Part shown: in pieces, positions 4,053 through 52,886 of the stretch
Position numbering within the stretch: position 1 is the first letter of the stretch
Layout of the letters: every line of letters starts with the position of its first letter
DNA from: Watersipora subatra
Lineage: Eukaryota; Bryozoa; Gymnolaemata; Cheilostomatida; Watersiporidae
DNA: 64,000 nucleotides
Direction of reading: 5' to 3'
Assembly: GCF_963576615.1 (NCBI RefSeq)
Contig: NC_088714.1
Span: forward strand, 1,364,001-1,428,000
Made by a program: the position numbers and the translations under genes
Notes under the pieces: generated by a model
The model's input: only the letters and a program-made list of their open reading frames with translations
Database searches by the model: none
Told to the model about the DNA's origin: nothing

Positions 4053-4069
4053 CTGATCATAATCGCAAT

Positions 4070-7000: not shown

Positions 7001-7855
7001 AAGTTGATGTTAAGTTGAAGATGTACTACCAAGGCTTTAAGTTGATGTTAAGTTGAAGATGTACTACCAAGGCTTAAGTTGATGTTAAGTTGAAGATGTA
7101 CTACCAAGGTTTAAGTTGATGTTAAGTTGAAGATGTACTACCAAGGCTTAAGTTGATGTTAAGTTGAAGATGTACTACCAAGGCTTAAGTTGATGCTAAG
7201 TTGAAGATGTACTACTAAGGCTTAAGTTGATGTTAAGTTGAAGATGTACTACCAAGGCTTTAAGTTGATGTTAAGTTGAAGATGTACTACCAAGGCTTAA
7301 GTTGATGTTAAGTTGAAGATGTACTACCAAGGCTTAAGTTGATGTTAAGTTGAAGATGTACTACCAAGGCTTAAGTTGATGCTAAGTTGAAGATGTACTA
7401 CCAAGGCTTAAGTTGATGTTAAGTTGAAGATGTACTACCAAGGTTTAAGTTGATGTTAAGTTGAAGATGTACTACCAAGGCTTAAGTTGATGTTAAGTTG
7501 AAGATGTACTACCAAGGTTTAAGTTGATGTTAAGTTGAAGATGTACTACCAAGGCTTAAGTTGATGTTAAGTTGAAGATGTACTACCAAGGCTTAAGTTG
7601 ATGTTAAGTTGAAGATGTACTACCAAGGCTTAAGTTGATGTTAAGTTGAAGATGTACTACCAAGGCTTAAGTTGATGTTAAGTTGAAGATGTACTACCAA
7701 GGCTTAAGTTGATGTTAAGTTGAATATGTACTACCAAGGCTTAAGTTGATGTTAAGTTGAAGATGTACTACCAAGGTTTAAGTTAATGCTAAGTTGAAGA
7801 TGTACTACCAAGGCTTAAGTTGATGTTAAGTTGAAGATGTACTACCAAGGCTTAA
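4070..7855. repeat. 37-38 bp satellite array, about 100 copies
   Basis: Head-to-tail units built on aagttgatgttaagttgaag followed by atgtactaccaaggctt. Units differ mainly at one point (ggctt, ggcttt or ggttt) and occasionally by a T-to-C change giving gatgctaag. The same order of variants recurs after about 857 bp (gatgctaag at about 4811 and again at about 5668, with matching runs around both), so blocks of about 23 units have been duplicated. No long ORF crosses it because every unit carries stops. Confidence 0.98.
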
Positions 7856-12533: not shown

Positions 12534-12670
12534 CTACATCGTAAATGTCAATTTTACAAAATTCATAGCTACTGAGTCAGCGCAACAGCTCTCATTATAG
12601 ATTTTAGCTACTGAGTCACCATTACTACATAATATAAAAATATGAACAAAAGGTTTGAGAGTGCTTATAA

Positions 12671-12723
12671 GGAAGTTTTATCTCTTTAGTGATTTGAAGA
12701 ATTACTAAAGAGATAAAACTTCC
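12671..12723. repeat. Perfect 20-bp-arm inverted repeat
   Basis: Arms 12671-12690 (ggaagttttatctctttagt) and 12704-12723 with a 13-base spacer. A transcript from either strand could form a hairpin. I see no flanking target duplication. Confidence 0.9.
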
Positions 12724-12838
12724 GTAGGATTACTTTGAGTAGGATTAACAGCCCTGATTAGGTTTCTATATAATAGTTTACAAACAACCTGAATTAGCAC
12801 TATTTTAGCTTAACTGCTGTTAGCTATTGAGAATGACA

Positions 12839-20098: not shown

Positions 20099-20533
20099 CT
20101 AGTCAGTACTCACACGGCTAACGGCCGAGGGGCCTTCATCTCTCTGTTCAATGCTTACGCATTGTCGGCAGTCCTTGCAGGTTTGCCTACTCAACCCATC
20201 TGCGTTCCCGTGGTGAGTTCCTGACCGGTGTTCCAGGATGTATCGGAACTCCGCCAAGATCTCGAGCCACCTGGCCACCTGGTTTGAAGGTTCCCTCCTA
20301 CACAACCACTGAAGTGAGGCGTGATCTGTCCGTAGAAGGAACTCTTGTCCATACATATAGGGCCGAAATTGCTTTACCGCCTTAACCACCACGAGCAATT
20401 CTCTTCGAGTGACACAGTAATTGCGCTCAGAAGAGGTGAGAGTTTTGCTGTAATAAGCAATGACCCTCTCGCAGCCCTCTTGTACTTGGGACAGCACGGC
20501 CCCTACTCCACACCCACTGGCATCCGTGTCCAA
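20099..20533 (-). pseudogene. pol: RNase H remnant
   Basis: Follows RT. Reads MDTDASGCGVGAVLSQ, FLLRTDHASLQWL and the end HHGNADGLSR, i.e. the two conserved Asp-containing strands and the final GNADGLSR box of gypsy RNase H. Confidence 0.85.
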
Positions 20534-20557
20534 GATGTACTGCCTCCCATGGTCTTG

Positions 20558-21908
20558 CTATCCCAAGATTGGGGCGGTGCTGATACTGTCCTTCAGTTTG
20601 TTGAAGGCGATCTGCTCCTCCTCTTCCGTCCATCTCCAGGACTCTCCCTTTGCAGTCAGCTGGTTCAAGGGATGTGCTATGGTAGCGAACTCGAGAATAT
20701 ATTGTCGGTAGTAGCCGACTGTCCTGAGGAACCCTTGGAGTTCCTTAACTCCGTGCGGGTTCGGCCACTCCATCACTGCCTTGACCTTGTCGGGATCTGT
20801 AGAAATTCCGTCCTGGCTTACTATGTGACCCAGATAGCGAATCTGGGGTTGCAATAGTTCGCATTTGAACGGCTTCAACTTCAATTCGGCCTTGTGGAGT
20901 CTCTGGAAAACCTCCTCCAGCTGGTGCGTGTTGAAATCTGGTGCGATGACTATGATGTCATCGAGGTATAACAACAGCGTTCTCCAGTGGAGGCCATGTA
21001 AGATGCGTTCCATGAGCCTTTGGAAGGTGGTTAGGGCGGAAATCAGTCTGAAGGGTAGTACCTTCCGCTTCCACAACCCGGATCGTGTCGAGAAGGTCGA
21101 ATTCTCCTGTGCTTCCGGTTCCAGGGGCACTTGCCAATACCCGCTCACCAGGTCTAATGTGCTAAAGTAGCGACTGCCAGACAGCGCGTCCAGGCTGTTG
21201 TTGATCTGGGTAGGGGGTAGGCGTCCTGCTCGGTGACGGCGTTCAGCCGCCGGTAATCTATGCAGAAACGCCATCTCCAGACTTTTTTTCGGACCAGCAC
21301 CACGTGAAGCTCCAAGCTCCTCCAGCTGGTTCGATGAGTCCCCTCTTGAGTAGGTCCTCGACCTGCCTTTCGGCCTCCGCCTCCTTTTTCAGCCTGAGAC
21401 TATAAGGAGGCTGCCGAATCGGCTGAGTGCCCTTCTTGAGTGAAATAAAATGTTCTACCTCGGAAGTCCTCCCTACGTCGTCGTCGCCTGTGCTGAACAC
21501 GGTGGCATACTGACTCAGCAAGGAGGCCAACCTCGCCGTCTGACTCGCCCCCTCACAGTTCAGTCGGGCCAACTGAAACAACACCTTAAGGTGAGCCAGC
21601 ACTTTATTGGTTGAAGTCGGACTGGCTTCATACGGTAAGGGGTCGTCATCCTCGACCTGTGGGGTATCCACCCCCGTGTAAGTGCCAATAGTGGCTCCAG
21701 ATCGGAAGGTCAATGACCCTTCCGTCGTGTTCATACAGCGGGTGATGACCTGTCCTTTGGGTCCTGGCTGATTTAAGCTACTCGCCACTGGGGGTCCGTT
21801 GGGGAACCCTTCAATCAGCCCCATGGGGCAGTAATTCCGTGTAGTGATGTGACAATGTATCGCCATCCCTGTTCGGGCTGGTACCACCACCTCCTTGATC
21901 ACTTGCAC
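20558..21908 (-). pseudogene. pol: Reverse transcriptase remnant
   Basis: Two open pieces: 21258-21908 (linker and start of RT, ending near DLLKRGLIEPAGGAWSF) and 20558-21274 (palm, with FSTLDLVSGYWQVPL, the catalytic LLLYLDDIIV box and LGHIVSQDGISTDP). A frame change of the usual decay type lies between them. The polymerase motifs and their order are those of Ty3/gypsy. Confidence 0.88.
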
Positions 21909-22260
21909 TTTACTTTGTAACAGTCGTCCATGCAGACTAGCTGCCTGCCATCCACTCGGACCACTGGTTGTTCAAACTCAAGAAAACACTGATGGGCCAC
22001 GAAGAATGGCATTCCCAGTATGGCATCTTCGCTTAGACGGCTGACTACAAAAACTTCCTCCGTTTTTACATCCCTCAGATGAATTGGCAATCGGATTATC
22101 CCGTAGAAGGGGAGCCGCGTCCTGTCAGCCAACAAGCTGTGGCTGCCGCTCTCCTTGGGCCGGTCTCGCACGGCTCTGGTAATCAGTCAAAGACCTATTT
22201 ATTTATCAGGTTCGTGGTGCACCCCGTGTCTAAGAGAAACTGGATGACCAGCCCCTACAC
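21899..22260 (-). pseudogene. Retropepsin-like protease remnant
   Basis: The active-site segment FLLDTGCTTNLI is readable at about 22200-22245, shortly after a stop. Two further stops and a frame change separate it from the open downstream part (VFVVSRLSEDAILGMPFFVA). The Asp-Thr-Gly triad itself is intact. Confidence 0.75.
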
Positions 22261-22289
22261 TCTTCCTGGAAGGAAATAGCTGGTGGAGT

Positions 22290-23650
22290 AAGTTCGGCTG
22301 AGGGCTTGCGCCATAGCGGTTTTTTCCAAGGCATTTTCCGTAGGGCCTGGGAGGACTTTCTTTTTATGATGAGGAGAAGTCTGTCCTTTGGGCCGTCCCA
22401 TGTTCGTGGTAGACCCGTGGTTCTTGAAGTTGCCACTCCCAAGGCAGGAAAGGTGCCCGTCCTACCGCTCTTAAGGCAGGCTTTCGACTGTCTCGTCCTG
22501 TGGGGGTGGTCCTCGGTGTTTTGGGTGGAGAAGATTTGATAGTCACCCTCCTTCGTTTCGGGTTATGTCCTTGCCACTTATACAGAGGGGCGTAGGCGGT
22601 ATCCGGGATCAGAGAAGCGACGAGGCTGGCCTCACTCAAGGACTGATAGTAATTTTGTGTCTCCACAGACCCTTCCTGTGCATGAATTCTCTCGGTTCAG
22701 TTCTTTCTGATTGAGGCCATCCGTCAGTGCTCACTGAATCCCATGTGGCTTTGGTACGTCTCCGGGGTTGTTTGGCCTTGACACAGTCAGTAGCCGGAGC
22801 TACTGCTGTGGCCTTTTCTCGTTTCCCGAAGCCCGTTTTGACTAGCGAGGGCAGTTCTTTCGTACGAGCCCTTGGTCGGCCACAACCCCAGCAAAGGGTA
22901 GCTGGCTGACTTCTTCTTTCGGTTGAAGTGTGGATTCATTCCTGGAGCCGTTCTACTTTCTCCATGAGAGATTGGACTAGCCGGCTAGTTGTCCAATGAC
23001 GTCGGTTTCGATCGAGTTTACCTGGTCAGAGGATCCTCCTTCCAGGGCTCGCACCGAAGATTTGGCAGGTTAGAATCTGGAGGTAGTCATTTCCGGCCCG
23101 TACAGCGTCAGCTAGTACAGGCCGAAAATGGGCGTGGGCGTGTGTACGGCCAACATATGTCGGTGCAAGGTAGGATCCCTCAGCGAGCTGCAGGACATCT
23201 CCATGGCCATGTTATTTTGGAGACGGTTCGGCAGGTCTCCGTACGCAATGCGTACCAGCCTTTCGACCTCTATGGCGTGTTCCTGGAGTGACGTTTCCTC
23301 CTCTCACCTAAGGGCGTTAAGCCGGTTTAGCGCCTGTCTAGCGGACAGCCCGAATCTTGCCCGGAGGGCATTGAAGATGGCCTCCGGGTCCTTCGCTCGT
23401 CCACAGTCTTCGGTCTGTTCGCCCGGGCCTCTCAGAAGTGCAACAGTGTTGCTCCTTCTGTCTACTGGTTGGCGTCGGCCACCTCCAGGAAGGGGGCAAT
23501 AAAATATTCCAAGTCTTCCTTTCCTATGTACTGGGAAATCCTGAAGTGTGGTGCCGGTTCCTGGGCCCTTGGCATCAGTAACACCCGTTCTAGTGCTTCG
23601 ACTAGTCGGTCAGGTCCCGGATCGGAGCTTTGTGCCCTTCTATTGGCCAT
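22290..23650 (-). pseudogene. gag: gag remnant of the Ty3/gypsy element
   Basis: Starts at 23650 with MANRRAQSSDPGPDRLVEAL and stays open for 62 codons (ISQYIGKEDLEYFIAPFLEV), then breaks. Further pieces follow in other frames down to about 22300, ending in a basic region (SPHHKKKV). An expected CCHC zinc knuckle is only partly visible. Gag would form the particle shell; this copy cannot make a full product. Confidence 0.7.
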
Positions 23651-23664
23651 GTTTGGGGTTTTCA

Positions 23665-24000
23665 GTAGGTTTCTGCTCCTTTCCTAGGGCAGTACATCTA
23701 CTGAGTCCGCTGCCGTCGGTTCTTTTTGGGTTTTTTCCAGTTGCCAAAAAGTTCTTCCAGTAGGAGAAATGCTGCCTTTTTAGGCAAGTCCTGTCTGAGC
23801 CTTCAGTAGGTTTCTGTAGGAAGCAGTAATAGAGCAGTGTATCTACTGGGTCTGTTGCCGCAGGGTTTTACACAGCTCTCTCTGGGTTTCTTCCTGTTGC
23901 GAGGAAGGTCTTCCAGTAGGAGCAACGCTGCCGTTTTTTAGGCAGGCCTTTGTTGCCTGGGTTTCCTCCTGCTGCCGGTTTTAAGGCAGTAAAAAGTTCA
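23665..24000 (-). repeat. Direct repeats in the retrotransposon leader
   Basis: Two diverged copies of a segment of about 150 bases (containing ctgctgccg-like and tcttccagtagga motifs) lie between the primer site and the gag start. Confidence 0.65.
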
Positions 24001-25099: not shown

Positions 25100-26020
25100 G
25101 AAAGAAGCTGCATGAAATATAGGTATCTATTGTATATCTATTCACGTGGCAACAAGTGGTTACACAGTGGCTGACTGATGCTACTCGCAGACATCAAATG
25201 GTTTCTTCCTGGAAAGGCTGAGTAAACCATCATCATAAAGCAAGCAATCGGAGAGCCATTGCGAGAACCCGCATCGCGGTTGCAGACATTTACAAACAAT
25301 TCAAACACTAAAACTATAAAAATTATGCAAAAAACATGAAAGAACCAAACAGGCTAGCTTAAATATATAAAAACCATATTTTTGGATAAAGTCAAAAAGA
25401 TGCAAAAATGTAGGAAAAATTGCCATTGAAATGCATATGAGATTATGGATTAAGAAAAGTTCAGTAAAAAAGGGACAAGCAAATATAAATACACGTATAG
25501 CGAGAATGATCGGTCAGAGGATGAGGCTAGGCAAGAGAGAGGCTCTCCTGAAGAAACTGAATATATCGCAGATTGTGATCAACTAATTCGACTGACCTAT
25601 AACAGAAGACGTAGAATATGAATAAATAACACTGACTCTTCTTTGTTACGGAAATACTGTAGATGTTGACTACGGGCAAGGAAAAGAAAACATAACATTA
25701 GTTAACATTTTGTTAACATTCCTAAGATTAGTTACTAACATATCACAAACAAGTGAAACTTTAACTCTAGTTGTATGCGGGCCAAAGGATGGGTATACAC
25801 CATTGATGAGTAATCCTACATCCTTGATACAATGATGTAAGATTACCTAACAAATAAATACACGATAAAAATATTTACAACAACTGAGATTCAAATACAG
25901 GAGGAAATCGGTTTCATTGTTTTACAATTAGAAACAAAATTACCGGTAAGCATAAGACCAATGATATAGAGCTCTCCATGTGTGGGCTGTATATCATTGA
26001 TAAAACAAACTTGCAAAATA
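25100..26020. other. Intergenic, nothing recognised
   Basis: AT-rich DNA without a supported ORF. Confidence 0.5.
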
Positions 26021-30700: not shown

Positions 30701-33700
30701 CAATTACACAAAACACTTTTCTCATGATATGTAGTTTGAAAGTTAGAATGGCAAATATTGTTATATGTTAAATACAAATAAATTTTTTGTCCAAAAACTT
30801 TTTATTACCCGGGCAATGCCGAGTGGTGCAGCTAGTCTGAGATAAAGCATGGTAACACATTAGCTACCACTAGGGCTTCTCTTATTGGTGATGTGAGCAA
30901 TCCTAACTTTAGACTAAAACACAGGGTTTTTAAAATTTTCGATAGGTTAAAGAGTTGTGCCAATTACTGAACTGAAGCTCTGCAAAACTGTGACAAAGAC
31001 ACTTCCTAAACATATTACCCCATTATGCTAGAGTGTTGTGGTTACCAAACACGGCACCCGATACAAATAACACAACAAAATTACAATGCAAAGCCAAAGC
31101 AAATTTCACAAACATTGAAAATATCTGTGCCATATTTATACGCCCCGCAGTAACTTTTGAGAAGTGTTTATATAACTATGTACACTGATCAGCTTGCGTG
31201 TACACCTTGGAGCACACAAGATAATTCTTCCTTCACACAGATAAGAAATTTAGAGAAGTCCGTGAAAATTAGCTGTTCTCTGAAGTCAATCGTTTAAAAT
31301 CTTTTAACGCTTGCTCTGCTCACATGAATAAGGATTTTAACGCTTGCTCTGCTTACATGAATAAGGATGTTAACGCTTGCTCTGCTTACATGAATAAGGA
31401 TTTTGAACGAATAATTTTTAAACAAGTTCAAAAAACCGAGCGATGTTAATATAAATTTTTCCAAATGCAGCTGTTTCTTGTCGATATGTTGCAAAGGCTG
31501 CGAATATTTATGTCCAGTTTCATTACTTAAAACATTGAAAAAAACCTTGTAATCAGTCGAAATTACATGAAAATATTATTATTGTTATATTAAACATTAT
31601 TGAAATCTCAATCTTTAATCTTTAATGTTGTGTGCTGCTGTTATTGCAATAACATTTGTGCTGTTAGTTAACCTTCAAGTGAAATATATTACTCATATTA
31701 CCTTGTTCCAAAATAAGTAACTAATATGTTATTTTTACAATCAGTTGTAACACTATATAATACAGTATATAATACATATATTAGGTGAAGGTTGACCTGA
31801 AGATACATGAGAGTCGTGGCTAGTTGGCAGTGAATAAAGCCGGACTGTCCGCCTCCCACGAGCAAAGAGCCAGTTTATTTAACTCGCATCTCCAATACAA
31901 CCAGACTTCTACTTACCCTGGCTCCTCATCCTCAGGGTCTTCACCCAAATCCATGAAGTCATTAAGATTTATGCTGTTGAGAACAGTTCCATTAGGATGA
32001 GCGATGATGATTTGGACAGGAAATGAGTAAACCTCCATTGATTGTCTGGCAAGACTGGCAAGGACTGGGTGACTATGCTCAAGCGTGAGGTAATGCTGTA
32101 ACACAAATGAGGGCGACAATGAAAGGCTATGTACAAGTACAACAATATAATGTAGTGCCATACTACAAAGTATTGCTATATACAAGTACAACAATATAAT
32201 GTAGTGCCACACTACAAGGTATTGCTATATACAAGTACAACAATATAATGTAGTGCCACACTACAAGGTATTGCTATATACAAGTACAACAATATAATGT
32301 AGTGCCATACTACAAAGTATTGCTATATACAAGTACAACAATATAATGTAGTGCCACACTACAAGGTATTGCTATATACAAGTACAACAATATAATGTAG
32401 TGCCACACTACAAGGTATTGCTATATACAAGTACAACAATATAATGTAGTGCCATACTACAAAGTATTGCTATATACAAGTACAACAATATAATGTAGTG
32501 CCATACTACAAGGTATTGCTATATACAAGTACAACAATATAATGTAGTGCCACACTACAAGGTATTGCTATATACAAGTACAACAATATAATGTAGTGCA
32601 ACACTACAAGGTAATGCTATATACAAGTACAACAATATAATGTAGTGCCATACTACAAGGTATTGCTATATACAAGTACAACAATATAATGTAGTGCCAT
32701 ACTACAAGGTATTGCTATATACAAGTACAACAATATAATGTAGTGCCACACTACAAAATATTGCTATATACAAGTACAACAATATAATGTAGTGTCACAC
32801 TACAAGGTATTGCTGTATACAAGTACAACAATATAATGTAGTGCCATACTACAAGGTATTGCTATATACAAGTACGCCAATATAATGTAGTGTCGCACTA
32901 CAAGGTATTGCTATATACAAGTACAACAATATAATGCAGTGCCAAACTACAAGGTATTGCTATATACAAGTACAACAATATAATGTAGTGCAACAATGCA
33001 TGGCAGCCTGTACTATAATGTAGTGCAGCAATGCATGGCAGCCTGGACTATAATGTAGTGCAGCAATATATGGCAGCCTGTACTATAATGTAGTGCAGCA
33101 ATATAAAGGCTAGCTCAGCTGAACAATGATCTACATTCACACTGCACAACTAGCGACGATTGACAACTAGCGACGATCAACAATCAGCGATTATTGACAT
33201 TTAGCGACCGTTAATAACTAGTGACAATTGACAACTAGCGACGATCAACGACAAGCGACAATCAACAACTAGTGACGACTTACAATGAATCGATGCTCAT
33301 AACTCCTCTTCTATTGCACATAAAAAGCAGTTTGCAGCCAGTTTTGGCTGGTTTGAAATCTTTGATAAAAACATGCAACAGGTTTAGCATAGGAAGCAGG
33401 TTGCAGAGCACATATTTTGTATGCAAAAGATTAACTGTATTTTTAATTGTTAGAATTGGCACAAACAGAGCTTCTCCACATTAATAATTTCATGTTGTTT
33501 CATATAAATTTTTTTGATTATGTTGATAGACATTTAATATGCATACTCTATTAATATGCATACTCTATTGAAAGATAGAAATAACTCTATTGAAAGATAG
33601 AAATAACAAAGTTTCTGTGACCTTTTTGAAACTGACACAGAAGTTTAATATATGCAAATTATAAAAATCTGCCTACAAAAATTGAGCAAAATTACATTTT

Positions 33701-36700
33701 CAAAATGAAAGTTTAGCGCCATATAAAATATTGAATAATAGATCGCTGAGCCATGCAATATTCCTAGCTAAAACTGGTGCACCCCAAAAATCATAAGAAG
33801 TTGTCTACCAACAAAATTGCTTCAACGAACGAGAGAACAAATCTCACCGAAAACGTGAGCGAACATAACCCACTACAGAGAAAAATCTTACAAAAGCTCG
33901 CTTTCGGAAAGGATGTAGTGAACTCTTTTCGAAAACAGCTAGCTTATGGAAAAGAGTTACCTGCTTCAAACATAACATATACCTTGAGGTCTACGACCAG
34001 CGCCCAAGTAGAGACGAATCTCTCTTTTAGCAGAGAGATGACGCCCGCACTTTCCAGGATGGTTTCCCGGAGAGTGCGGGCTGAACCTCAGCATGACTGG
34101 TCATCGAGAGCACCCCATAGTACTATAGAGTGAACGAGCTTGTCCTCTTTAGCTGCCACATCATAAGTCTCCGTGTAGTTATGGTACTGCACCTAAACAA
34201 CAAATAGGACGTGACTCTTTATACTTTATAACCTCAGGACATATCATCTATAAACTTAGTAGGAAAGGGTGCACCACTTTCCCCTACATATCATCCACTC
34301 TTTTATAGACAAAAGCTTGTAGATATTGCGAAAAATATAAAGAAACACATCACTTGTTTACCTCAACCAAGTACCGTACTTTTCGGGCTAGTACAGTAGG
34401 ATTAGCTGCTACTTTTTTCTGATGATTTGAGCCAAGCGACTTATATAAAGGTACGGCTATTCTGTGGCTTTTTCTTTCACCGCTAGGGCGCAATAGCCAA
34501 AATATCCGGTTAGTGCGCCTCTAGCGGTGAAAGAAAAAACGAAACAATGCCTAACGGTACTGTTCCGTTAGATATTAGGTTAAAAAGCGTCGGTTAATAC
34601 GAAACAGTGCCGTTAGGCACTGTTCCGTTTTGAACAGGAAAGTTGCTACTGTATTAAAAAGCACCGTCCTGAGTTCTGCGGCCTATACAAAGGTGTAGCC
34701 TATGTATTGTTTTATTATCATTTTTTTGGAAACTGAAGCAGATTCGGCTTATATAAGGGTGCGGTTTATAGTCTGAAAAGTACGGTAATTAACATTTAGC
34801 ATAAAAGATTTTATGTGAATAGTTGTCATGCTAAACGTTATAATCATACATAGAGTGCGTTTCCACGCTTCGAATAGTTTCGGAGTCGCTTCCACTCCAA
34901 ATCATAGAAACGGTAAAATCCGAATGCACTCGATGCCATTTCACTTCACTAAATTTGTACTAAAACATTCGCTGTGAGATCATAGAAACGCTCAATGCAG
35001 ATGGGTCTGAATTAGCAATACTTGACTAAGCTCTCCTCACTGGAAATAAAAATTTTTTAGCGCACAACCACATGGGTCTCTGCTGCGAGAACATTCCACC
35101 GCTATTCACTACTATTTCTGCTTGACTTTTTGCATTAACATTTACATGGCAAGGATGTGTTGCTCAAATGAAGATGACCAAATAAGTATTATTCAGTGCA
35201 ACTAGTTGATTAGGCATAAATTAAAAAGTGATCATGACATGAAAACGAGTTTACTTTAGCGAGTTTTGTTTACGTTACAACAAGGTCAATAAAAGGTCAA
35301 TAAAAGGTCAATAAAACGTACTGTGGTAAATGGATAAAAGACCAATTCCATTGCCTTCTCACAGACATCCACTTGAACCTCATCCGCCCACGTCAAGGCC
35401 TCCAAAGCTTCTTCAGGCGAAGTTGTCTCAGGTTTTAGCGAGGTTCTCAAATCATAGCCATCCCACAGAGCGGGACGAGATTCTGATGTGGCCACCAAGC
35501 CCATCTCTGGCAAATAACCAATGTCCACTTCCATCGAATGCTCGGCATCATTCTTCAACCATTCCATATCTGCGTGTAGTCACAGAATACTGCCCGGTGA
35601 CCATAGTTAAATAACAAAGACATTGGTATTCAGCATACATGTATGTAGTAGTTGATAGCCATGGACTATTACACATAATACCACTACAATGATATTACAG
35701 CTCTAGTGGCAGATATAACATCCTTAAGGTTGACTTGCAACAAAATTCACATTACAGTTATTTGGTATTAAAAGATTCACCATGTCTTACTCTGAGGTGT
35801 TGTAGGTGCAAAATATGTAGAAATGCGATTACAAGCTCTTAAAAGCTCAAAAACGAACAGTTGATCGCAGCCATCACGAACCCGCCGTAGATCGGAATCA
35901 GTTTACTTTTCTGACGCAGTCATTACATTTGGTTATTGTTTTGTCACGTGATGTTCTCACGTAAATTGAAAGGCCAACAAAAGGCTCAATATAAAACTTC
36001 TCGTAGCACTAGTTTATGACAAACACTTCGGGTTTTACCGAAGACCCCGTATCAAATATACAGTAGATGCTCGCTACTTTACAGTTTTGTTTCGGCTTGG
36101 TCTAATCGTCTAGTCGTAATCTGATCATGTGACCCATACTTTACAAATAATTTCTGCAGAATTTTTCGATTATCACAGGTGACCAACAGGCTCGTCATGT
36201 TTATCAGACAATGATATTTACTTCTTTGAGCTAAGGTTGAAAAATTAAACGGATTTTTACGGTAGGTTATAAAATATCAGTGCTGAAAGTGACGGCATTA
36301 CAATGACGATAAAATAGATGCGTAAGAACAATAGACATGGTTTTATTGAATGCGTGAAGTATATTTGTGAAAATATTTCGACGAATGAGGTTGCGCAAAA
36401 GTGTAAACAGGAGCCATCTTGTACAACTACGGCCCATTTGAGCCGTTTTGGAATGAGATTCCAATCTATGGCGGTTTTGTGATGGCTGCGATTAACTGTT
36501 CATTTTTGAGCTTTTAAGAGCTTGTAATCATATTTCCACATATTTTGCACCTACCACACAACAGAGTAAGACATGGCGAATCTTTTGATATCAAATAACT
36601 GTAATGTGAATTTTGTTGCAAGTCAACCTTTAACATAGACCAGTTTGCCGACGATTCAGCTATTGACAGATACACTCAAATAAACTAGGTGTCTAAATGT

Positions 36701-39700
36701 AAACTAATGATAATAATATAATACACAAATGCACACTAATGATATACTCAAATATTTCTCAAGATACATGAAAACTCCCTATAGACTACGGTATACACTG
36801 AAGCACCCTTACACTCATGTGACGTAACCTGCATAAGGTTTCACATTCATGGCATGCTCATATATGTATGATGACTTGCTCATTCACACGGTGCCACACT
36901 CTTATATAATAAGATCACATAATGACATACTCACATGATGAAATGTTAATATGACGAAAGTACATGATGAGAGGGTCACACATGAGACACATTCATAACA
37001 TGTACGCAACGACACCCTCAACCATGACGCACTCATACTCTCTCTCCTTCTCGTGCAGTTAGTCATCTCGACAATGACTGCCTTAGGGTTTAAGCTACAT
37101 CCCTGACTTCCATGTAGTTGTTTCCACCTTCTCTTACCACCTGTTTGTGTCTAGTTACCTCAACTTCATGTTACCCCTAGCTACATCTTTGTATCTCAGT
37201 CTGGGTCGGCCCAGATTCCTCTTATCTTTATAGAGTTGTGAATATAATAGTTGTCTTGGCAACCGCTCATAATCCATTCTGTGCACATGGTTCGCTCATT
37301 GACGCACTCATACAATGACTCATACACAGGAACACAGTTCCACCCAATGGCACGCCCATATGTTAGCATGTCTAGCAAAGTGTACACAACACCATGCCAG
37401 TTTAATACCGACCGACATTGAGTCTCTTGTTGGTTGGCACAAACATCCTGAAATACTTGAGTTTGGACAGATCTCTAGAGATTATGAGGCGGCCTTTGAA
37501 CTGCGCAGGAGTAAACCAAAATGGCTGCCGTGGCGGCTCCTGCAGCTGGAATTCGGCGTGTACCCTACAGAACATGATGACAGAGAGTAGCTCTGATGTA
37601 GCGGAGAGTGCAGCTGTCGAGAGCCAAGAAAATGCTACAGATGAGTCTTTCACTTATCACTGGTACAAATTCCGAGGTAAAAAGTAAATAAAAGTACATG
37701 ACAGGCTATGAGACGCAGCGCACCATGTTCTACCTGATAGAAATGTCGAGCCAGTCATCATTGCGAGCTCTCACGCAAGCCAGAGATCCTTGAGGAGGAA
37801 AACGAGTGTTTATGAAGGGGCGTGGGTGCAACATAGCCAACAAATTATGCAAGCTTGTGAGATCTCCAGTCACTCTAGGTGGGTACAACCTGGAGCAGAT
37901 GGCCAAGACAAGTGATACCTTGAAAAGTTTGTGATCGAAGACTTCTTAGCAAAAGTGGCTCCAAGACAGTTAAACAGACTATAGACCATAAGCTAGTCAC
38001 CATAAGAAATGGTAACCACTACTTGTACAGTTGAAAATGCTGGTCATTGCGAACTATCCTCCCCAGTTATTTGAATGTGGCAATGGGCCAAGAGGAAATT
38101 GAAAGCGATATACAGTATGTATATGTAGCTGTCATATTTGAACTTTGACCTGTTTTAGTTGATGTAAGGAAAAGCTGATGTATTGCAGCACGCTGGCCTA
38201 AGCTGAATCAGTATAAACAATGGCTGAATACCTGTTACTAGATGCAGTAGAGTAGCCTCCTTGACCGTAGTCTTCAGCCCTGACACCAAAAGGGGTGATG
38301 CGGTAGGCAGACCCTAGCACAGGGTTAAACTCCTTAGGCATGAACAATGCAAAGTAGCGAATAGCAAAGTTTTGCAATTCGATGGCTGGTTTTTGCCAGG
38401 CCCGGAGAGCTGCTAAAGGTTTAAGCTAAAATATGAACAAACAAAATAGAATGTATGATGATAGAGTGACAGGCAATCAACACTAGAGTAGTACCACTGT
38501 AATATAATAGAATTACATCCCTACCTGGTTTGTTAAGCCTGAGTTAGTGTCTAGCCACACCTCATAGACTAAACAAATTTATGGAGAGCGTAACCAATGC
38601 AGACCTTCCAACCTACTCATAGCGACTACACATAACATCAACTCATCATTAACTTTTCATCAGGAAACAGGCCAAAAGGATGAAAAGATTCAACCAGCAA
38701 TGGTTGGTGCTGTTTAAAAAGTAAACTTTACATAATGGTAATTGGGTAACAATTTACAGAGCCATTGAGCTGAATTTCCAGGAAATCAGTTTACCCTCAA
38801 CTTCAAATACCGCACCATACGGAATCGTTTGTCAGCAGCTGCGAACGCATTACTAGCTTTAGTGTTCTTATAAAATATTTAATTTCAGTTTTAGTCTTAG
38901 ACGTGTGGCTATGTTTAGTAGATGACAGTGAATGGCAGCGTGTACACATAACATACATTTATTAAGAAAAGAACGAAGACATTTCAATAACAACTTCCCC
39001 ACGCAAGCCGAGTAAATCTTCACATCTTGTTGTTTGACACCTTTAATAAACAGTTGACTAAAGCTCAGCAAAACAACTCAAAAGGCAACTGAAGAAATGG
39101 GAAGATGCCCAGTGGCATAAAATAAGATTACCTCTAAGGAATTTGGTGGTAGGTTGTGTGACATAATTTGTAAAGACTCAATCTCCAGTGGCTGCAAATA
39201 AGACTTCACTGTAACTAAATTATCTTCTAGGTGAATTGGGAGTTCATATTCCAAAGTAACCTGTAATTCGAAGAATAAGACAGAGAACTCCCACAAACTG
39301 ATACTATGTATATACCAAACGCATAGCTACATCGTAAAAAAGACTTCACTTCCTTCCTAATAAAAACATCATCTGCTTGAGTATCTATGAATGTGCAACT
39401 GCAAGTGAGTCAGGCAGATCATAAATCGAAAGCAAATGCTGAGTACAGTTCATGGCTGTCTATAAAATGGACATGTAAAAGTTATGAGATCCTTACATTG
39501 ACATCTACGAGAATATGGGCGAGTGGTTCGAATTCTCTAACATCAAGTACTCCATCATCATCAACATCATGCTGCCGAAACAATGCCAGTGCTTCGGCGC
39601 CCATTCGTTGAAACAGCTAAAATAAAATATCATCTCTAAATATTTTTGAAAACAATTAAAGCTGCTAATATAACTGAGTCTGCTGCTTGCAAACATTAAA

Positions 39701-39921
39701 AAGAACATGATGCTAACCTGGGGGTCACTGCTCCAGTGTTGTGTAGTGTCATCTTGCATCCAAATACCAAAACCCACTGCTGATACAGCGACAAAGAGTG
39801 TGAAGGCAATCACAAGTATTTTAGCTTGAAGGTAACTAACTTCGATGACAAACTTGTTTGTGATGTTTGCCTCTGCATTATCCTGGGAACCATCGTCCCC
39901 ACTATGTGATGGAGACGACAT
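27638..39921 (-). CDS. SELENON: Selenoprotein N (10 coding exons, in-frame TGA = Sec)
   Basis: ER-membrane selenoprotein that in vertebrates supports SERCA and ryanodine-receptor calcium handling. Exons in order: 39718-39921, 39497-39616, 39132-39260, 38232-38425, 37734-37889, 37413-37564, 35322-35569, 33983-34192, 31917-32095, 27638-27713. All junctions have AG/GT and matching phases, giving 555 residues, close to the 556 of a human isoform. Landmarks: one N-terminal membrane segment ([20 protein letters not shown]); an EF-hand loop [28 protein letters not shown] and [42 protein letters not shown] with the TGA at 34088-34090; VYSFPV and [17 protein letters not shown]. The ATG at 39921 is chosen because the upstream bases look like a splice acceptor. 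No convincing SECIS was found. The last exon is the least certain. Confidence 0.93.
27761..30836. mobile_element. Hairpin-ended element in the last SELENON intron
   Basis: Left end carries the hairpin atacccg-gcgttgct-cgggtat (27767-27788). The right end carries a related, inverted-orientation acccgggcaatgccgagtgg followed by cagctagt (30806-30836). A hairpin followed by CTAGT resembles a Helitron 3' end, but the inverted relation of both ends suggests a terminal-inverted-repeat element instead. Internal direct duplications support a mobile-element origin. No transposase or RepHel is readable. Confidence 0.45.
28690..29400. repeat. Internal direct duplications of the hairpin-ended element
   Basis: A ttttattttgctgc(a/g)gtttgc block occurs at about 28690 and 28947. 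A ~150-base block beginning ggttttctattatt occurs at about 28996 and 29257. Near 30601 and 30708 a third pair (cacaaaacactttcctcatg type) is seen. Confidence 0.8.
31302..31402. repeat. 33 bp tandem repeat, 3 copies
   Basis: Unit taacgcttgctctgcttaca followed by tgaataaggattt, in SELENON intron 9. Confidence 0.9.
31917..32095 (-). CDS. SELENON: SELENON exon 9
   Basis: 179 bases: [20 protein letters not shown], then [20 protein letters not shown] and the acidic [11 protein letters not shown]; acceptor tgttacag, donor gtaagt. Its acceptor abuts a 49 bp minisatellite. Confidence 0.92.
32128..32995. repeat. 49 bp minisatellite, about 17 copies
   Basis: Unit gctatatacaagtacaacaa followed by tataatgtagtgccacac and tacaaggtatt. 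It alternates 'ccacac...aagg' and 'ccatac...aaag' versions in repeating order, suggesting multi-unit duplications. It lies in SELENON intron 8, right before exon 9. Confidence 0.97.
33000..33280. repeat. Degenerate short repeats (gcagcctgtactataatgta; actagcgacgatcaac)
   Basis: First three copies of a 'tagtgcagcaat..tggcagcctg' unit, then an irregular 15-17 base 'caactagcgacgattga' repeat. Continues the minisatellite region. Confidence 0.75.
33983..34192 (-). CDS. SELENON: SELENON exon 8: selenocysteine exon
   Basis: 70 codons, phase 0 at both ends, acceptor ttgtttag, donor gtatat. Contains [20 protein letters not shown], the redox motif, with the Sec TGA at 34088-34090. A naive ORF finder would split the exon here, and the only long open frame it shows is antisense. 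Confidence 0.95.
34043..34081 (-). promoter_or_regulatory. Sec redefinition element-like hairpin after the TGA
   Basis: On the coding strand gcccgcact (34081-34073) pairs perfectly with agtgcgggc (34051-34043); an inner tcc/gga pair extends the stem. It starts 6 bases after the Sec TGA. Vertebrate SELENON mRNA has a stem-loop at this location that stimulates UGA readthrough. Confidence 0.82.
34374..34785. mobile_element. Mariner-like MITE with TA target duplication
   Basis: Terminal inverted repeats ccgtacttttcgggcta (left) and tagtctgaaaagtacgg (right), TA on both sides. Non-coding, 412 bp, in SELENON intron 7. An inner inverted repeat of about 24-base arms (tttttctttcaccgctag and its complement, about 34469-34538) can form a strong hairpin. 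Confidence 0.75.
35322..35569 (-). CDS. SELENON: SELENON exon 7
   Basis: 248 bases: [20 protein letters not shown], then a variable acidic region and [12 protein letters not shown]; acceptor acgcag, donor gtacgt. Confidence 0.9.
35728..36629. mobile_element. TTAA-flanked MITE, family A copy 1
   Basis: Long inverted arms, starting ggttgacttgcaacaaaatt at the left and returning as ttttgttgcaagtcaacct at the right, with TTAA at 35724-35727 and 36630-36633. Full-length relative of copy 3 (44810-45702), with alignable interior. Inserted in SELENON intron 6. No transposase frame. Confidence 0.85.
37413..37564 (-). CDS. SELENON: SELENON exon 6
   Basis: 152 bases: [20 protein letters not shown], then [10 protein letters not shown] and [10 protein letters not shown]; acceptor tctgtag, donor gtcggt. 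Confidence 0.92.
37734..37889 (-). CDS. SELENON: SELENON exon 5
   Basis: 156 bases. Reads [32 protein letters not shown] and on to [10 protein letters not shown]; acceptor ctccag, donor gtagaa. Confidence 0.9.
38232..38425 (-). CDS. SELENON: SELENON exon 4
   Basis: 194 bases, [12 protein letters not shown] to [12 protein letters not shown], ends in phase 2 at donor gtattc. Confidence 0.87.
39132..39260 (-). CDS. SELENON: SELENON exon 3
   Basis: 43 codons, [15 protein letters not shown] to NLPPNSLE; acceptor ttacag, donor gtaatc. Confidence 0.88.
39497..39616 (-). CDS. SELENON: SELENON exon 2: EF-hand
   Basis: 40 codons with the calcium-binding loop [12 protein letters not shown] followed by [12 protein letters not shown]; acceptor ttttag, donor gtaagg. 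Confidence 0.9.
39718..39921 (-). CDS. SELENON: SELENON exon 1: membrane anchor
   Basis: 68 codons, starts [13 protein letters not shown], carries the single membrane helix and ends SSDPQ at donor gttagc. An in-frame ATG 13 codons upstream is less likely because it lies before an acceptor-like ttttag. Confidence 0.78.
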
Positions 39922-47192: not shown

Positions 47193-47679
47193 GCCTATAT
47201 ACATATACATACATTCTAAACCATATATACTTGACACTCCATAGTGCACTGTACTGTATGTTGAAATATTTACCCTGTGAGAAAATTACAATTTGAATAC
47301 AAAAGAGTAAAGTAAATATTCATGTTATGTGAATGGCCGATTAGCCTGAGATTATGGACATGAGTCTGTGGTAAATGTGGAAACGTAGAACACTAGCATC
47401 TGAATTTGGTGTGGTAAACAATCTGAATTTTTTGAGATCTGCAGCAGCTTAGTCGGCCGTGGAGCTTGTCTTCTATTGGTGACTTTCGTCTCTAACATCT
47501 GTAAACAAGGGCTGACTGTATATCATTTTGACATCGTATTTATATTTTCTTATTATGGTCATGTTTTATGACTTGTAGAAAACTGATATCAGTGAGGAAA
47601 ATTAAAAAGGAACAAGGGCATGGACTCTGCTTAGAATTTTAGTAACCTTATAAGAACACTCGTAGCATTTCTGTTTGTC

Positions 47680-48235
47680 ATGGGGGCATTTCTTGAACGA
47701 CCCAAAACAGAAAAGTACAATGAAAGTGGGGAAGGAAATTCACTTCGCTTTGGCCTGACATCTATGCAGGGTTGGAGGGTGGAGCAAGAAGATGCCCACT
47801 CAGCAGTTGTTGGTCTACCTCACGGTATGAAGGATTGGAGTTTTTTTGCCGTCTTTGATGGACATGCTGGTGCATTTGTATCAGCCCACAGCTCACAGAG
47901 ACTTTTAGATTTCATCGTGACTAATGCAGACTTTCGAGGGGGGCTAGATGCTCCACCCGAAGAGTGGAGACCAACTATGGATGATGTGTTAAAAGGTGTG
48001 CGCACAGGTTTTCTTGAACTCGATAAGGATATCAGAAACCTGCCAGAGGTTGCCACGGGTGAAGACAGAAGCGGTTCAACAGCTATTGTAGTATTTGTTA
48101 CACCAGATAGTTTTATATTTGGAAATTGCGGTGATTCAAGGGGCCTAGTTGCCAGACCGACATGTGTATCTTTTCATACTGAAGATCACAAGCCAACCAA
48201 TCCAGAAGAGCGAGACCGCATCACTAAAGCTGGAG
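47680..48235 (+). CDS. PPM1A: PPM1A/B exon 1
   Basis: 185 codons plus one base, from ATG to AKAGG; donor gtaatt. Holds the first half of the catalytic domain including DGHAG. Confidence 0.94.
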
Positions 48236-51200
48236 GTAATTGTTATGGTTGCTGTATCACATTTGCTCCTTAATGCGCTTGGATGGAGTGAGCTGAAAGT
48301 TTACTCTGGTGGGGTGACTCATACTTGCGCAATCCTTGGCCTGCAAGGAACTTGGGTTGTGATAAAACTGATAAGTTGCATGCCAAGTGTATTAATAGGA
48401 AATCTTGAGCAAACTAAGCTGATTATCTTTTTTTGATAAAACGCAAGCATTGGTCTCATTCAACTTTAAAATTAACCACTAACCAATGTGTCGCTTGTTA
48501 GGTTCGCAAGAGATTTTTATTTAAAAAGAGGTTACATATGCAATTTTTTAACTCGTAGTGACCATGTACATTGGCAAAGCTAGTTCTAATCAATCCAAGT
48601 ACATACATAATCACCTTGGTTGAATCTAATACGTCTATTTTCCCTGTTGCAGCATAAACAATTCTCATCATTGTGCTGGCGTAGCATGTTTTTTCAACGT
48701 TTCACAGGCTGATGTAATTCTTCATTTTATAGGCTATTTTTGAAAATGCATGAGGAGATCTTATGACGGGTCTGTTGAGCGCCTGCGCATATATTCAGCC
48801 AACTCTAATGCAGGGGTGAATGATCTCTAAAACTCAATAATGCATGGTATTTAATTAAACTTGCTGGTTAGTTTGCATTAACCTCAATTAATTGCCTCTC
48901 AAGTAGCATTGTATCCTAAGCGGTAGAGTGGCGACTCCATCTCACTTGAAGTACTCATGCAGCTCATGTCTTATCAGCTTCCATCAAATTTTCTGATATG
49001 TCAACTTTGGTTACGATAAAAAATATTGTGCAATAAAGCTTTGCCTCATTCGCTGTAGGAGCTATTAAATGCATCGGCATTTTGAAATGCCAAAAATTCT
49101 TATTGGTGGTGAAAAGACGAGATGGTATTGCTCCCTCCTGTTTTATAACATTAGCACTGTACATCTGCAGGTCAGGTTATGATACAGCGTGTAAATGGCT
49201 CGCTCGCTGTCTCCAGAGCTCTTGGCGATTTTGACTATAAGATGAATCAGACCATTGGACCATGCGAACAACTTGTTTCTCCTGAACCTGAGGTGAATGC
49301 AGTGTCATCAAACATGGCAACTATATCTATACATTTGTTGACTCTTAAAATGTCCTTGTAGATTTTTGCAACTCAATTTTTTATCTGTTACGATTTAGAT
49401 TTGGGTATGCCTTTTGTGGAATGGGTCATCTAAACCCAGCCAACTATTTATATTTGGCAGCTGCACATGAAAAAGCAATTCATATTAGCACATGAATCTT
49501 TGACATGTTGCAGTGAATGTATAACATGGTTAGTACTTGAAACCTGGAAAAGTATCATGAAAAAGTGTGAGATTTTGTAAATATACGAAAGGTTGGTTTG
49601 GTGCAGAAAACAATGTAGCTGTGCTTACTATCACATTACTACAACTTGAGAAACATTACTTACCCCTTAAAGTATACATACATTGTAGTTCTTATCAAAC
49701 CTCGCTTACTATCTCATCAAGATTGCCATTTTTAATTCTCATTTAGGATTTTGCATTTGTTTCTGTTTACAATATAATATCACAGCCACATACCTGCAGG
49801 TGGCAGACATGTGCGCCTAGCAAGCATCCTCTAGCCTATTGATTTAGCCTGAAATGTTTGTCTTGCGAGCAGGTGACAGTGGTAGCACGAACAGAGGAGG
49901 ACCAGTTCATAGTACTGGCGTGCGATGGTATATATGATGTGATGACTAATGAAGATGTTGCTGACTTTGTGAGATATCACATGCAGATTACTAATAACAT
50001 AACAGAGATCTGCAATAAAATAGTTGATACTTGTTTACACAAGGTAAAGTTTATTTCCTTCCTATTTCAGGGCATTTTTTAGCATTGTCACAACTCCATT
50101 TGGTTAAAATATTGGCCTATCACATTACAATCAACCCTCCGCATACAAAGTTATTCATTCCGATGCGTGTTGTGTATGTCGAAACCGTCAAACAAATATT
50201 CTTATTAGGATATATTGTATTTCCTTTAATTTGGTCCAGAGGCAAAAGTACAACAAACATGCTTTAAATATTTTCATATAGCATGTAAGCAAACGAGTTA
50301 TAAAAAAGTGTATAGAACTAAATCTACAGAATAACCGAATTAATCAGAACTAAATTAATAGTGATCAAAAGTAAAAATTGGTTTTTGTTGGTTTACCTTA
50401 CAGAAAAGTGAACGCAATTGCGAGTTGTCAATTCAGTGTGAGTGAGAGAAATGCTCCGTGCCACTCACTTTACCTAATACTTGGACTTACCTAACGCTTG
50501 GACTTAGCCAACAATTGAACTTACCTGACTTTTTTTATTTAGAAAAAATTGGTCAACATGTTAAATATTATTTCATGTTTACTGTTAAATTTTATTTTAA
50601 CTACTTTGTCGGAAAATTTCCATGTCGAGACTTGATTGTAACTTTATTTGCGTATTCAGTTTTCAATACTTTCCTACAGTTTTCTTCATTTAGTAAAATT
50701 GCTATAAATTATTCTATAATTATGTATTACATTTTTTATTAAAAGTAGTTGAGACAACTTATTGCAGGAATAACCGGCGTATCCAGATGCTCTGGTTGTT
50801 TAAATGAGAAATTATCTTCTTACAAATTTCTAGCTTTTCGTCACAAAGTTTTACGATTCATAATTTAAACAAACATTTTACAAATTTTCACCTTTTTTAT
50901 TAATTTGTAACTCTGGCTGATTGGTTATTAACAAAGTAACTTTGTTACACCTTGGTAATATCATGAGGGAATAATGAAACGGAGACTGCAGCCGGTAATC
51001 AACGAACACCTGGTCACCCATTTATTTGTGTCAGTCTTACCCTTGCTTGTAGAATAGAATGTCTTCGTAGAAGCTGTTTTTGTGTCACATCCCAAGTTCA
51101 GTCAAATTTTTTCGTGCCAAGTTAGTTTATTTCGATTCTGCTTCACATGTTAAAACTGTTGAGTGCTCGAGCAAATAATCTTATTAGAATAAATTAGTTG

Positions 51201-52886
51201 GTTCCTCAATCCAATAACTTGTGATAACTTCTTACATGCTGCAAATAATTATGCATGACATTATCTGAAAACTAAATTACATGTAGCCAAACTGTAGTAT
51301 TTAAGTAAAAAGTGTTTAAAAACTGCAGTATTATTAAAGTAATTTTTAATAATAAAAATATTTTTATTATTACTTTACCTTGAAACACCGTGGATAAAGG
51401 TGCAGACTCGGTAATGCATACATTCGAAAATAGTTGTTGATATAGAAACATGGCGCATCGCCTCCCTAACTCAAGACTAGGTAAAATTTAAACTAGCTTA
51501 ACTTCTATCGCTTTTATTTTTTCACATATTCTAACTTTTTATTAGCTCTTTTTACTTTCACTTAATGGACTGCAATGGCAGTTTTTCAAGAAACTGACTG
51601 TCGCGTATTGGAAAGTCTGCTCTAGGGTCCGATACTTGCTTGAATCTTACATTGCAAGGTGCAAAATTTGTATGTTTAGGTGATTGTATATAGAAGTTTG
51701 ACTGGACAAAAATAATACGCCCCTTATTTGAAATTTGTTTTTGAATATATTTTCACCATCACTTGGTTACCACGGCGGTTGATTTTCAGTTTTTCCAGTA
51801 ACCGTGATCATTGGTGGATAGCCAAAATGTTTTGAGATGGTAACAAACATAACATGGGTGAAGATGGTTGAAGTGACAATTGCTATCAATTGTGTATTGT
51901 GGACATGTGAGCATGCCACAGACAACAAGATCTGGTCTCAAACTGACACGATTGTTACAGGGAAGCCGAGACAACATGTCGATAGTAATAGTTGCCCTTC
52001 CGGGAGCCCCTACCCTGAATGAGGATGTGGTCAAAGCTGATCAGGAGTGCAACGCCCAGCTCGCAGCACATGTTAAGAAGGAGTTTGATGAGCAACCAGA
52101 TATTGAGACTGTGTCCATAGTACACGCCATCGCGGCAAAGGAGGTGGAAATAGAAGGCCTCCCTCCGGGCGGTGGTATTCACACTAAGTGAGTCATCTCA
52201 TTTCTCTTGCTTTTATTGCTTGTCACGTGGCTCTGCTCCTTAAATTCTTAGAACTTCTCTAAACGATTGTTTTGTTATTGATTAGTTAACTAATTATTCA
52301 AAATTAAAGATATTTTTTGCACTACTGACATGGCCTTTAACCTTCGTCTCAGTAAAATATTTGTACTTGCACAGATTGATTTTTTAAGTTCTGGAGCTCA
52401 GCAAAAGTGTAGTTGTGATTGTGGCTTTAATTAACACGAACAATCGTAGTTTGGTGTGTCAAATGGATGCGTCTGGTAGTCGAGTATGGTCGAGCCTCTA
52501 GGTCATCCTGGTCAATCCTTTGGTCATCATGGCATAATCCGTTTCTATATTTGTTGTACATTCAAATCTTCTTACACTTCTCAAATCAATCAAAAATCCT
52601 TAATGTCCTGCATAACTACACGTAAACAACCATTCTTTCTTTCGGCATATGGTATTATTGAATGTTGTTTCAGCAGTTTACTTACTTTCACAACTTTTTA
52701 TAATCAATGCTCAATTCTTATCCTTAACAGAGAATATTACCAATCGCCCAGGAGAAATTGTTGTTGACCCACACCAGGCTCACCATGTAACATTAATTAT
52801 TATTAATGCATGTTCTGTTTTGTAGGTATTCATTTATAGATGATCTACTAAATTCATTAAAGAATCCGCCTTCAGATGAATCATAA
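47680..52886 (+). CDS. PPM1A: PP2C-family Ser/Thr phosphatase, PPM1A/PPM1B type (5 exons)
   Basis: Metal-dependent protein phosphatase of the PPM family; vertebrate relatives dephosphorylate MAPK-pathway kinases, SMADs and IKK. Exons: 47680-48235, 49171-49292, 49873-50043, 51961-52187, 52826-52886. All junctions are GT/AG in matching phase; 378 residues, near the 382 of human PPM1A. The start MGAFLERPK matches the family and supplies the N-terminal Gly for myristoylation. Motifs: [70 protein letters not shown] and [11 protein letters not shown], so the metal-binding acidic residues are all present. The C-terminal extension has the short helical tail ([18 protein letters not shown]). It is equally close to PPM1A and PPM1B; the symbol marks the subfamily. 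Confidence 0.94.
49171..49292 (+). CDS. PPM1A: PPM1A/B exon 2
   Basis: 122 bases: [20 protein letters not shown] to EQLVSPEPE; acceptor atctgcag, donor gtgaat. Confidence 0.93.
49873..50043 (+). CDS. PPM1A: PPM1A/B exon 3
   Basis: 57 codons: [19 protein letters not shown] to DTCLHK; acceptor gcgagcag, donor gtaaag. Confidence 0.93.
51961..52187 (+). CDS. PPM1A: PPM1A/B exon 4
   Basis: 227 bases: [17 protein letters not shown] to LPPGGGIHT; acceptor ttgttacag, donor gtgagt. Confidence 0.92.
52826..52886 (+). CDS. PPM1A: PPM1A/B terminal exon
   Basis: 61 bases after acceptor ttttgtag: [19 protein letters not shown] then TAA. Confidence 0.88.

Follow-up and report, generated by a model that had tools for sequence, protein, structure and literature searches.

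An in-frame TGA at the selenocysteine position of a SELENON gene in the bryozoan Watersipora subatra

In a 64,000-nucleotide stretch of Watersipora subatra genomic DNA (the window), an exon on the minus strand that resembles part of selenoprotein N (SELENON) contains an in-frame TGA. This raises the question of whether the codon ends the protein or is decoded as selenocysteine (Sec), and of which RNA signals could direct such decoding.

Gene model and family membership

A gene model was built from homologues and splice sites. The resulting SELENON model comprises ten exons on the minus strand between 39921 and 25527. All nine introns are of the GT-AG type, the phases link exon to exon with no break, and the reading frame amounts to 553 codons including Sec, with no frameshift and with the TGA at codon 436 as the sole internal stop. 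Judged by its sequence, the gene looks intact.

Exon 1 (39718..39921) was placed by its frame and by homologue alignment. It begins at the presumed start codon (ATG at 39921), ends at the donor CAG/gttagc and encodes an N-terminal hydrophobic segment of 21 residues, judged by eye to be signal-anchor-like. Exon 2 (39497..39616) carries an EF-hand loop, identified from the homologue alignment, a Pfam EF-hand match below cut-off and a match of the alignment profile to EF-hand proteins. The joined model and the homologue alignment placed exon 3 (39132..39260), exon 4 (38232..38425), exon 5 (37734..37889, the YPPRVTGDL...ISIR exon of the homologues), exon 6 (37413..37564, with a donor, gtcggt, that looks weak), exon 7 (35322..35569) and exon 9 (31917..32095), all on the minus strand. 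The intron between exons 8 and 9 holds a 49-bp tandem repeat (32126-32995, 17.8 copies, 95% matches).

Exon 10 (25527..25596, minus strand) is only 70 nt long, lies 6.3 kb downstream of exon 9 and encodes the C-terminal tail, ending with TAG at 25529-25527. Its acceptor, cttctgttatag, and its phase both fit. A profile made from the tails of 59 homologues and run over the six frames of the window scored this exon at 11.5 bits (E 0.033 for the six frames). This was the second-best match in the window, but the best one downstream on the right strand; the top score, 13.0 bits, fell at 60009-59884, on the same strand and upstream of the SELENON gene. Set against the family pattern (D)P....Y..FL..GL, the tail reads VDHNLRYIQFLQESLSLA, with weak support at 11.5 bits. 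The model is least secure at exon 1 with its start, at the exon 6 donor and at the short exon 10.

Two other constructions were discarded. An earlier model of 478 codons, without exons 5 and 10, was replaced once the homologues revealed the missing YPPRVTGDL...ISIR exon. An alternative last exon of 77 codons from 31525, which includes a tandem repeat, was dropped because the tail profile points to 25596-25527. This last exon joined to the model without exon 5 would total 555 residues, the length given in the first-pass annotation; that figure is close to the 553 of the ten-exon model, but the exact count did not hold.

The 478-aa query matched 200 database proteins at E <= 1e-3, the best at 9.9e-135, and the resemblance to SELENON is therefore not a matter of chance. 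Local identity to the 120 listed homologues out of these 200 is 28-49%. Many of the 120 are named Selenoprotein N or SELN, with fish, mammals, birds and molluscs among the sources, and two echinoderm matches carry the name EF-hand domain-containing protein. In a 13-row alignment the EF-hand, the HAEFQL...PFWFTPAQF...LNVDMEW core and the Sec site are all in register, and the EF-hand near the N-terminus aligns with that of the homologues. The family proposed in the first-pass annotation is thus confirmed by the database matches and by this alignment. Pfam searches with the whole protein returned EF-hands at 12-16.7 bits, all below the cut-offs, and a Pfam search with exon 8 alone returned no family. 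The alignment profile matches EF-hand structures (best 2.3e-6), and all 15 matches to solved structures cover the EF-hand region only.

The predicted protein resembles SELENON/SEPN1 in its EF-hand, its conserved core, its Sec site and the position of the TGA within an exon, and probably also in its membrane-anchor-like N-terminus (by eye) and its C-terminal tail. It differs from the homologues around the hairpin described below, where it reads GSAR..ESAG instead of GSGR..ES(x)P. The comparison with the homologues brought up no residue speaking against SELENON membership. The table in PMC3473315 lists SelN in five of its six invertebrate genomes (those of a sponge, an anemone, a limpet, an annelid and amphioxus; not Trichoplax), so an invertebrate SELENON is not new. 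From the alignment, the gene is a further SELENON of an established animal family. Its exons, frame and family are direct observations of the analysis.

Elsewhere in the window, a 37-bp tandem repeat occupies 4068-7855 (101.9 copies, 97% matches), and the plus strand at 47635-52188 carries exons of a gene resembling protein phosphatase 1B (PPM/PP2C). The product of this gene is 50-61% identical to 119 of its 120 listed homologues and 83% identical to a 278-aa metagenome protein. In a tree of 22 rows chosen from these 120 homologues, rooted for drawing only, it groups with the metagenome protein on a long branch within the animals, and no named animal falls close by. ARAGORN found no tRNA in the window.

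The selenocysteine exon and the sequence beyond its TGA

Exon 8 (33983-34192, minus strand) comprises 70 codons with one stop, the TGA at 34090-34088, which occupies the same position as the Sec of SELENON in the homologue alignment. The two remaining frames contain three and four stops. The acceptor (...gttgtttag/GTG) and the donor (CTCAAG/gtatat) are both in phase 0, in agreement with exon 7, which ends in phase 0, and with exon 9, which begins in phase 0. In the sense direction the ORF runs for 34 codons before it meets the TGA, and the longest ORF over the exon is antisense, at 33777-34133 on the plus strand (118 codons from GTG). Read on the plus strand, the first frame of the exon 8 stretch contains two stops and two further TGAs and by eye resembles no family, and this candidate was rejected. 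All of this agrees with the first-pass annotation, which had described 33983-34192 as a SELENON exon with a TGA at the Sec position, with fitting splice sites and phases on both sides and with an antisense frame as the only long ORF visible; translation and homologue alignment place the exon, whose strand it had left unstated, on the minus strand, and the joined model gives GT-AG introns on either side. Based on its position in the frame and the family context, the TGA at codon 436 is most likely read as selenocysteine.

A search with the 117 residues that follow the TGA returned one protein, P0242, among 13 candidates. P0242 has 77 aa, comes from a short contig and spans exon 8 end to end, with identity at 31 of 35 residues after the TGA and at 26 of 34 before it. 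It shares the frame and the end point of exon 8 and then runs on as VSEIRAV, as would a gene caller that passed through the donor GT. At the Sec position P0242 prints Trp, which is probably a TGA translated with a code that reads TGA as Trp, although it could be TGG. By this comparison, the sequence after the TGA is conserved and appears to be coding. The first-pass annotation had named a Cys homologue of the same lineage in a different frame as one case that would speak against the exon; none was present among the matches, and the close relative P0242 shares both frame and limits.

Of the 120 listed homologues, 53 stop precisely at DDQSC. Another 29 carry DDQSCSGR, presumably because a gene predictor spliced away the residues around Sec. 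In 28 more the motif is absent in the form searched for, and the other ten continue differently after DDQSC. The full motif occurs in four of 121 proteins (the 120 and P0242), two with Cys and two with Trp. Both proteins with Cys are from echinoderms, and their Cys may be a Sec written as Cys by a tool. The first-pass warning that standard annotation loses this exon therefore stands, given the 53 of 120 homologues that end at DDQSC.

The same 53 relatives could be taken to mean that the TGA is a real stop and the locus a pseudogene or a truncated SELENON. However, ends at DDQSC are what gene callers that stop at TGA would be expected to yield, the TGA lies at the Sec position of the family, and the 553 codons hold no other stop and no frameshift. 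The sequence past the TGA is, moreover, conserved in P0242, and the hairpin that follows the TGA is more stable than synonymous recodings of the same stretch. We consider a true stop hardly credible.

The hairpin behind the TGA

A hairpin resembling the Sec redefinition element (SRE) of human SELENON begins 6 nt after the TGA (34043..34081, minus strand). Folding gives a stem of 9 bp, a mismatch and 7 bp, in total 16 bp, closed by a 5-nt loop. The spacing of the human SRE from its UGA is likewise about 6 nt. A 71-nt piece that starts at the TGA and includes a further, small hairpin has a folding energy of -38.5 kcal/mol and a z of -6.19, and none of 200 shuffles was as good. The 54-nt piece with the hairpin folds at -31.2. 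When the 51 nt were recoded synonymously, none of 5000 recodings was as stable with the codon usage of the gene, and one of 5000 with uniform usage; the stability is thus not forced by the protein.

A scan of both strands of the whole window in 3-base steps reached the energy of the 54-nt hairpin piece at only two places besides the Sec hairpin itself. One is a palindrome near 12670; the other is an inverted repeat at 34477-34531, which folds more stably than the Sec hairpin. This inverted repeat is part of a group of overlapping inverted repeats at 34459-34631, within the intron that separates exon 7 from exon 8, and no piece listed in the scan is more stable than its 54-nt piece at 34477. 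The palindrome (12664-12728) is near-perfect and gives weak Rfam mir-4662 matches on both strands, at 33.8 and 31.1 bits against 97.

Within the stem, a GCC codon (Ala) is paired with a GGC codon (Gly). At these paired codons all 53 scorable proteins among the 120 listed homologues (not the same 53 as those stopping at DDQSC) have Gly...Pro, and Ala...Gly is found here and in P0242. At the second base, the GGN and CCN codons of the homologues would form a G-C pair in place of the C-G pair of this gene. Pattern scans of viral (12 stretches) and prokaryote (30 stretches) collections confirmed no nucleotide relative, and the covariation is therefore read from protein sequences and the genetic code only. 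The linked Ala/Gly change supports pairing of the stem without proving it, as it is a single event, read via the genetic code, in a set of proteins that seem to come mostly from vertebrates.

Between them, PMC3541580, PMC8704476, PMC4561486 and PMC12839072 describe the SECIS of human SELENON and its SRE, a hairpin downstream of the UGA that stimulates recoding, and give the SRE changes G463V, R466Q and R469W/Q as causes of myopathy. The W. subatra hairpin is like the human SRE in lying directly downstream of the Sec UGA, within the coding sequence. It is unlike it in the outer stem, where, as far as the genetic code allows the pairs to be deduced, the base pairs differ and both arms carry amino-acid changes. 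If the human Sec is residue 462, the counterparts of human G463, R466 and R469 in this protein are G437, R440 and R443. A hairpin at an in-frame UGA of a gene from a Sec family is also known from the SPS1-UGA genes of Hymenoptera; those genes, however, are without SECIS and the published readthrough structure overlaps the UGA, whereas the present hairpin starts after it. An SRE in an invertebrate SELENON was not found in the open-licence literature searched, and we do not claim that it is absent from print.

The SECIS-like element and the decoding of codon 436

At the gathering scores, Rfam identified no family in the window. With a looser threshold, RF00031 (SECIS_1) matched at 25244-25184, in the 3' UTR of the model, with 26.6 bits against a gathering score of 35 (E 0.62 for all families and both strands of the 64 kb). 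No other SECIS_1 match with an E of 10 or less occurs in the window; this one lies on the right strand (minus), 282 nt past the TAG. The element folds with an ATGA...TGAT core (ATGA 25236-25233, TGAT 25196-25193) between two helices and with a mini-helix on top. In the core, the helices, the mini-helix and the 3' UTR position it is like eukaryotic SECIS elements (RF00031); it is unlike them in its score below 35 and in its 5' apical loop, where C-A-G replaces the usual A-A. The canonical SECIS apical loop has an unpaired A-A. Almost all non-sponge SECIS elements of the invertebrates surveyed are of the AUGA_AA type, according to PMC3473315. The fold itself is unexceptional (z -1.25, with 27 of 200 shuffles as good).

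A strict SECIS pattern, which required A-A or C-C at a set position and passed candidates through fold filters, found nothing in 25530-19000. A descriptor scan that dropped the A-A demand found, on both strands of the 64 kb, this element and no other, and 40 shuffled windows gave 0.075 on average; the relaxed descriptor was written after the Rfam match, and the uniqueness is therefore no independent proof. The element at 25244-25184 is likely the SECIS of the gene, a candidate as yet unproven. The first-pass annotation had recognized the Sec TGA but missed both likely signals of the recoding site, the hairpin after the TGA and this sub-threshold element. Reverse-transcriptase retroelement ORFs, by eye of the LTR/gypsy type, lie on the minus strand at ~20100-23900, from ~1.3 kb behind the element.

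The non-canonical SECIS could mean that exon 8 is SELENON but the 3' end of the model is wrong, the true last exon and a canonical SECIS being located at some other place, inside the window or outside it. Exon 10, which is short, was outscored by the upstream match at 60009-59884, and the sole AATAAA or ATTAAA in 25526-22000 is at 22203. The phase, acceptor and position of exon 10 nevertheless all fit, and the SECIS match follows 282 nt behind it, with no second match anywhere in the window at E values up to 10. On this evidence we consider a misplaced 3' end improbable.

The features of the locus also bear on a reading in which the gene is a SELENON orthologue but its UGA is read by an ordinary tRNA (e.g., for Trp or Arg), hairpin-assisted and with no selenium involved, as has been proposed for insect SPS1-UGA. 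The sub-threshold SECIS match without the usual A-A, the unusually strong hairpin and the Trp printed in P0242 would be consistent with this. On the other hand, the DDQSC-U-GS context is kept, which a residue other than Sec would not need, and a SECIS-like core is found at the expected place, once in 64 kb where shuffled windows average 0.075, albeit with the descriptor written post hoc. Such Sec-free readthrough is in our view very improbable.

We therefore favor, with a probability of roughly 0.93, a functional invertebrate SELENON gene in which the UGA at codon 436 is decoded as Sec via a SECIS in the 3' UTR, with the hairpin assisting. The conserved context of the codon and the two RNA folds are observed in the DNA; the steps that would make use of them are proposed as follows. 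The gene would be transcribed and the mRNA spliced from ten exons. At the UGA the ribosome would insert Sec, directed by the 3' UTR SECIS, which would act through SBP2, EFSec and Sec-tRNA. The 3' UTR element would be the essential signal and the hairpin behind the UGA a local helper that tilts the ribosome toward recoding, as reported for the human SELENON SRE. The product would be an EF-hand protein anchored in a membrane and bearing a redox site, SCUG; by analogy with vertebrates it is presumably a calcium and redox sensor of the endoplasmic reticulum.

For annotation, the gene is a clean example of how the practice of stopping at TGA truncates or mis-splices a selenoprotein. For the family, the stability of the hairpin suggests that a coding-region recoding hairpin of the human type may have been kept in a distant invertebrate as an RNA structure beyond the needs of the protein. 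A bolder and rather doubtful reading is that the hairpin was rebuilt in this long-branched lineage, its outer stem exchanging Gly/Pro for Ala/Gly codons on opposite arms and forcing changes beside Sec, and that the SECIS lost its A-A. Recoding would then depend more on the hairpin, and less on the SECIS, than it does in vertebrates. Should the linked codon changes be borne out in further species, RNA structure would be seen to constrain amino acids at a redox site, and such changes would help in judging human disease variants of the SRE.
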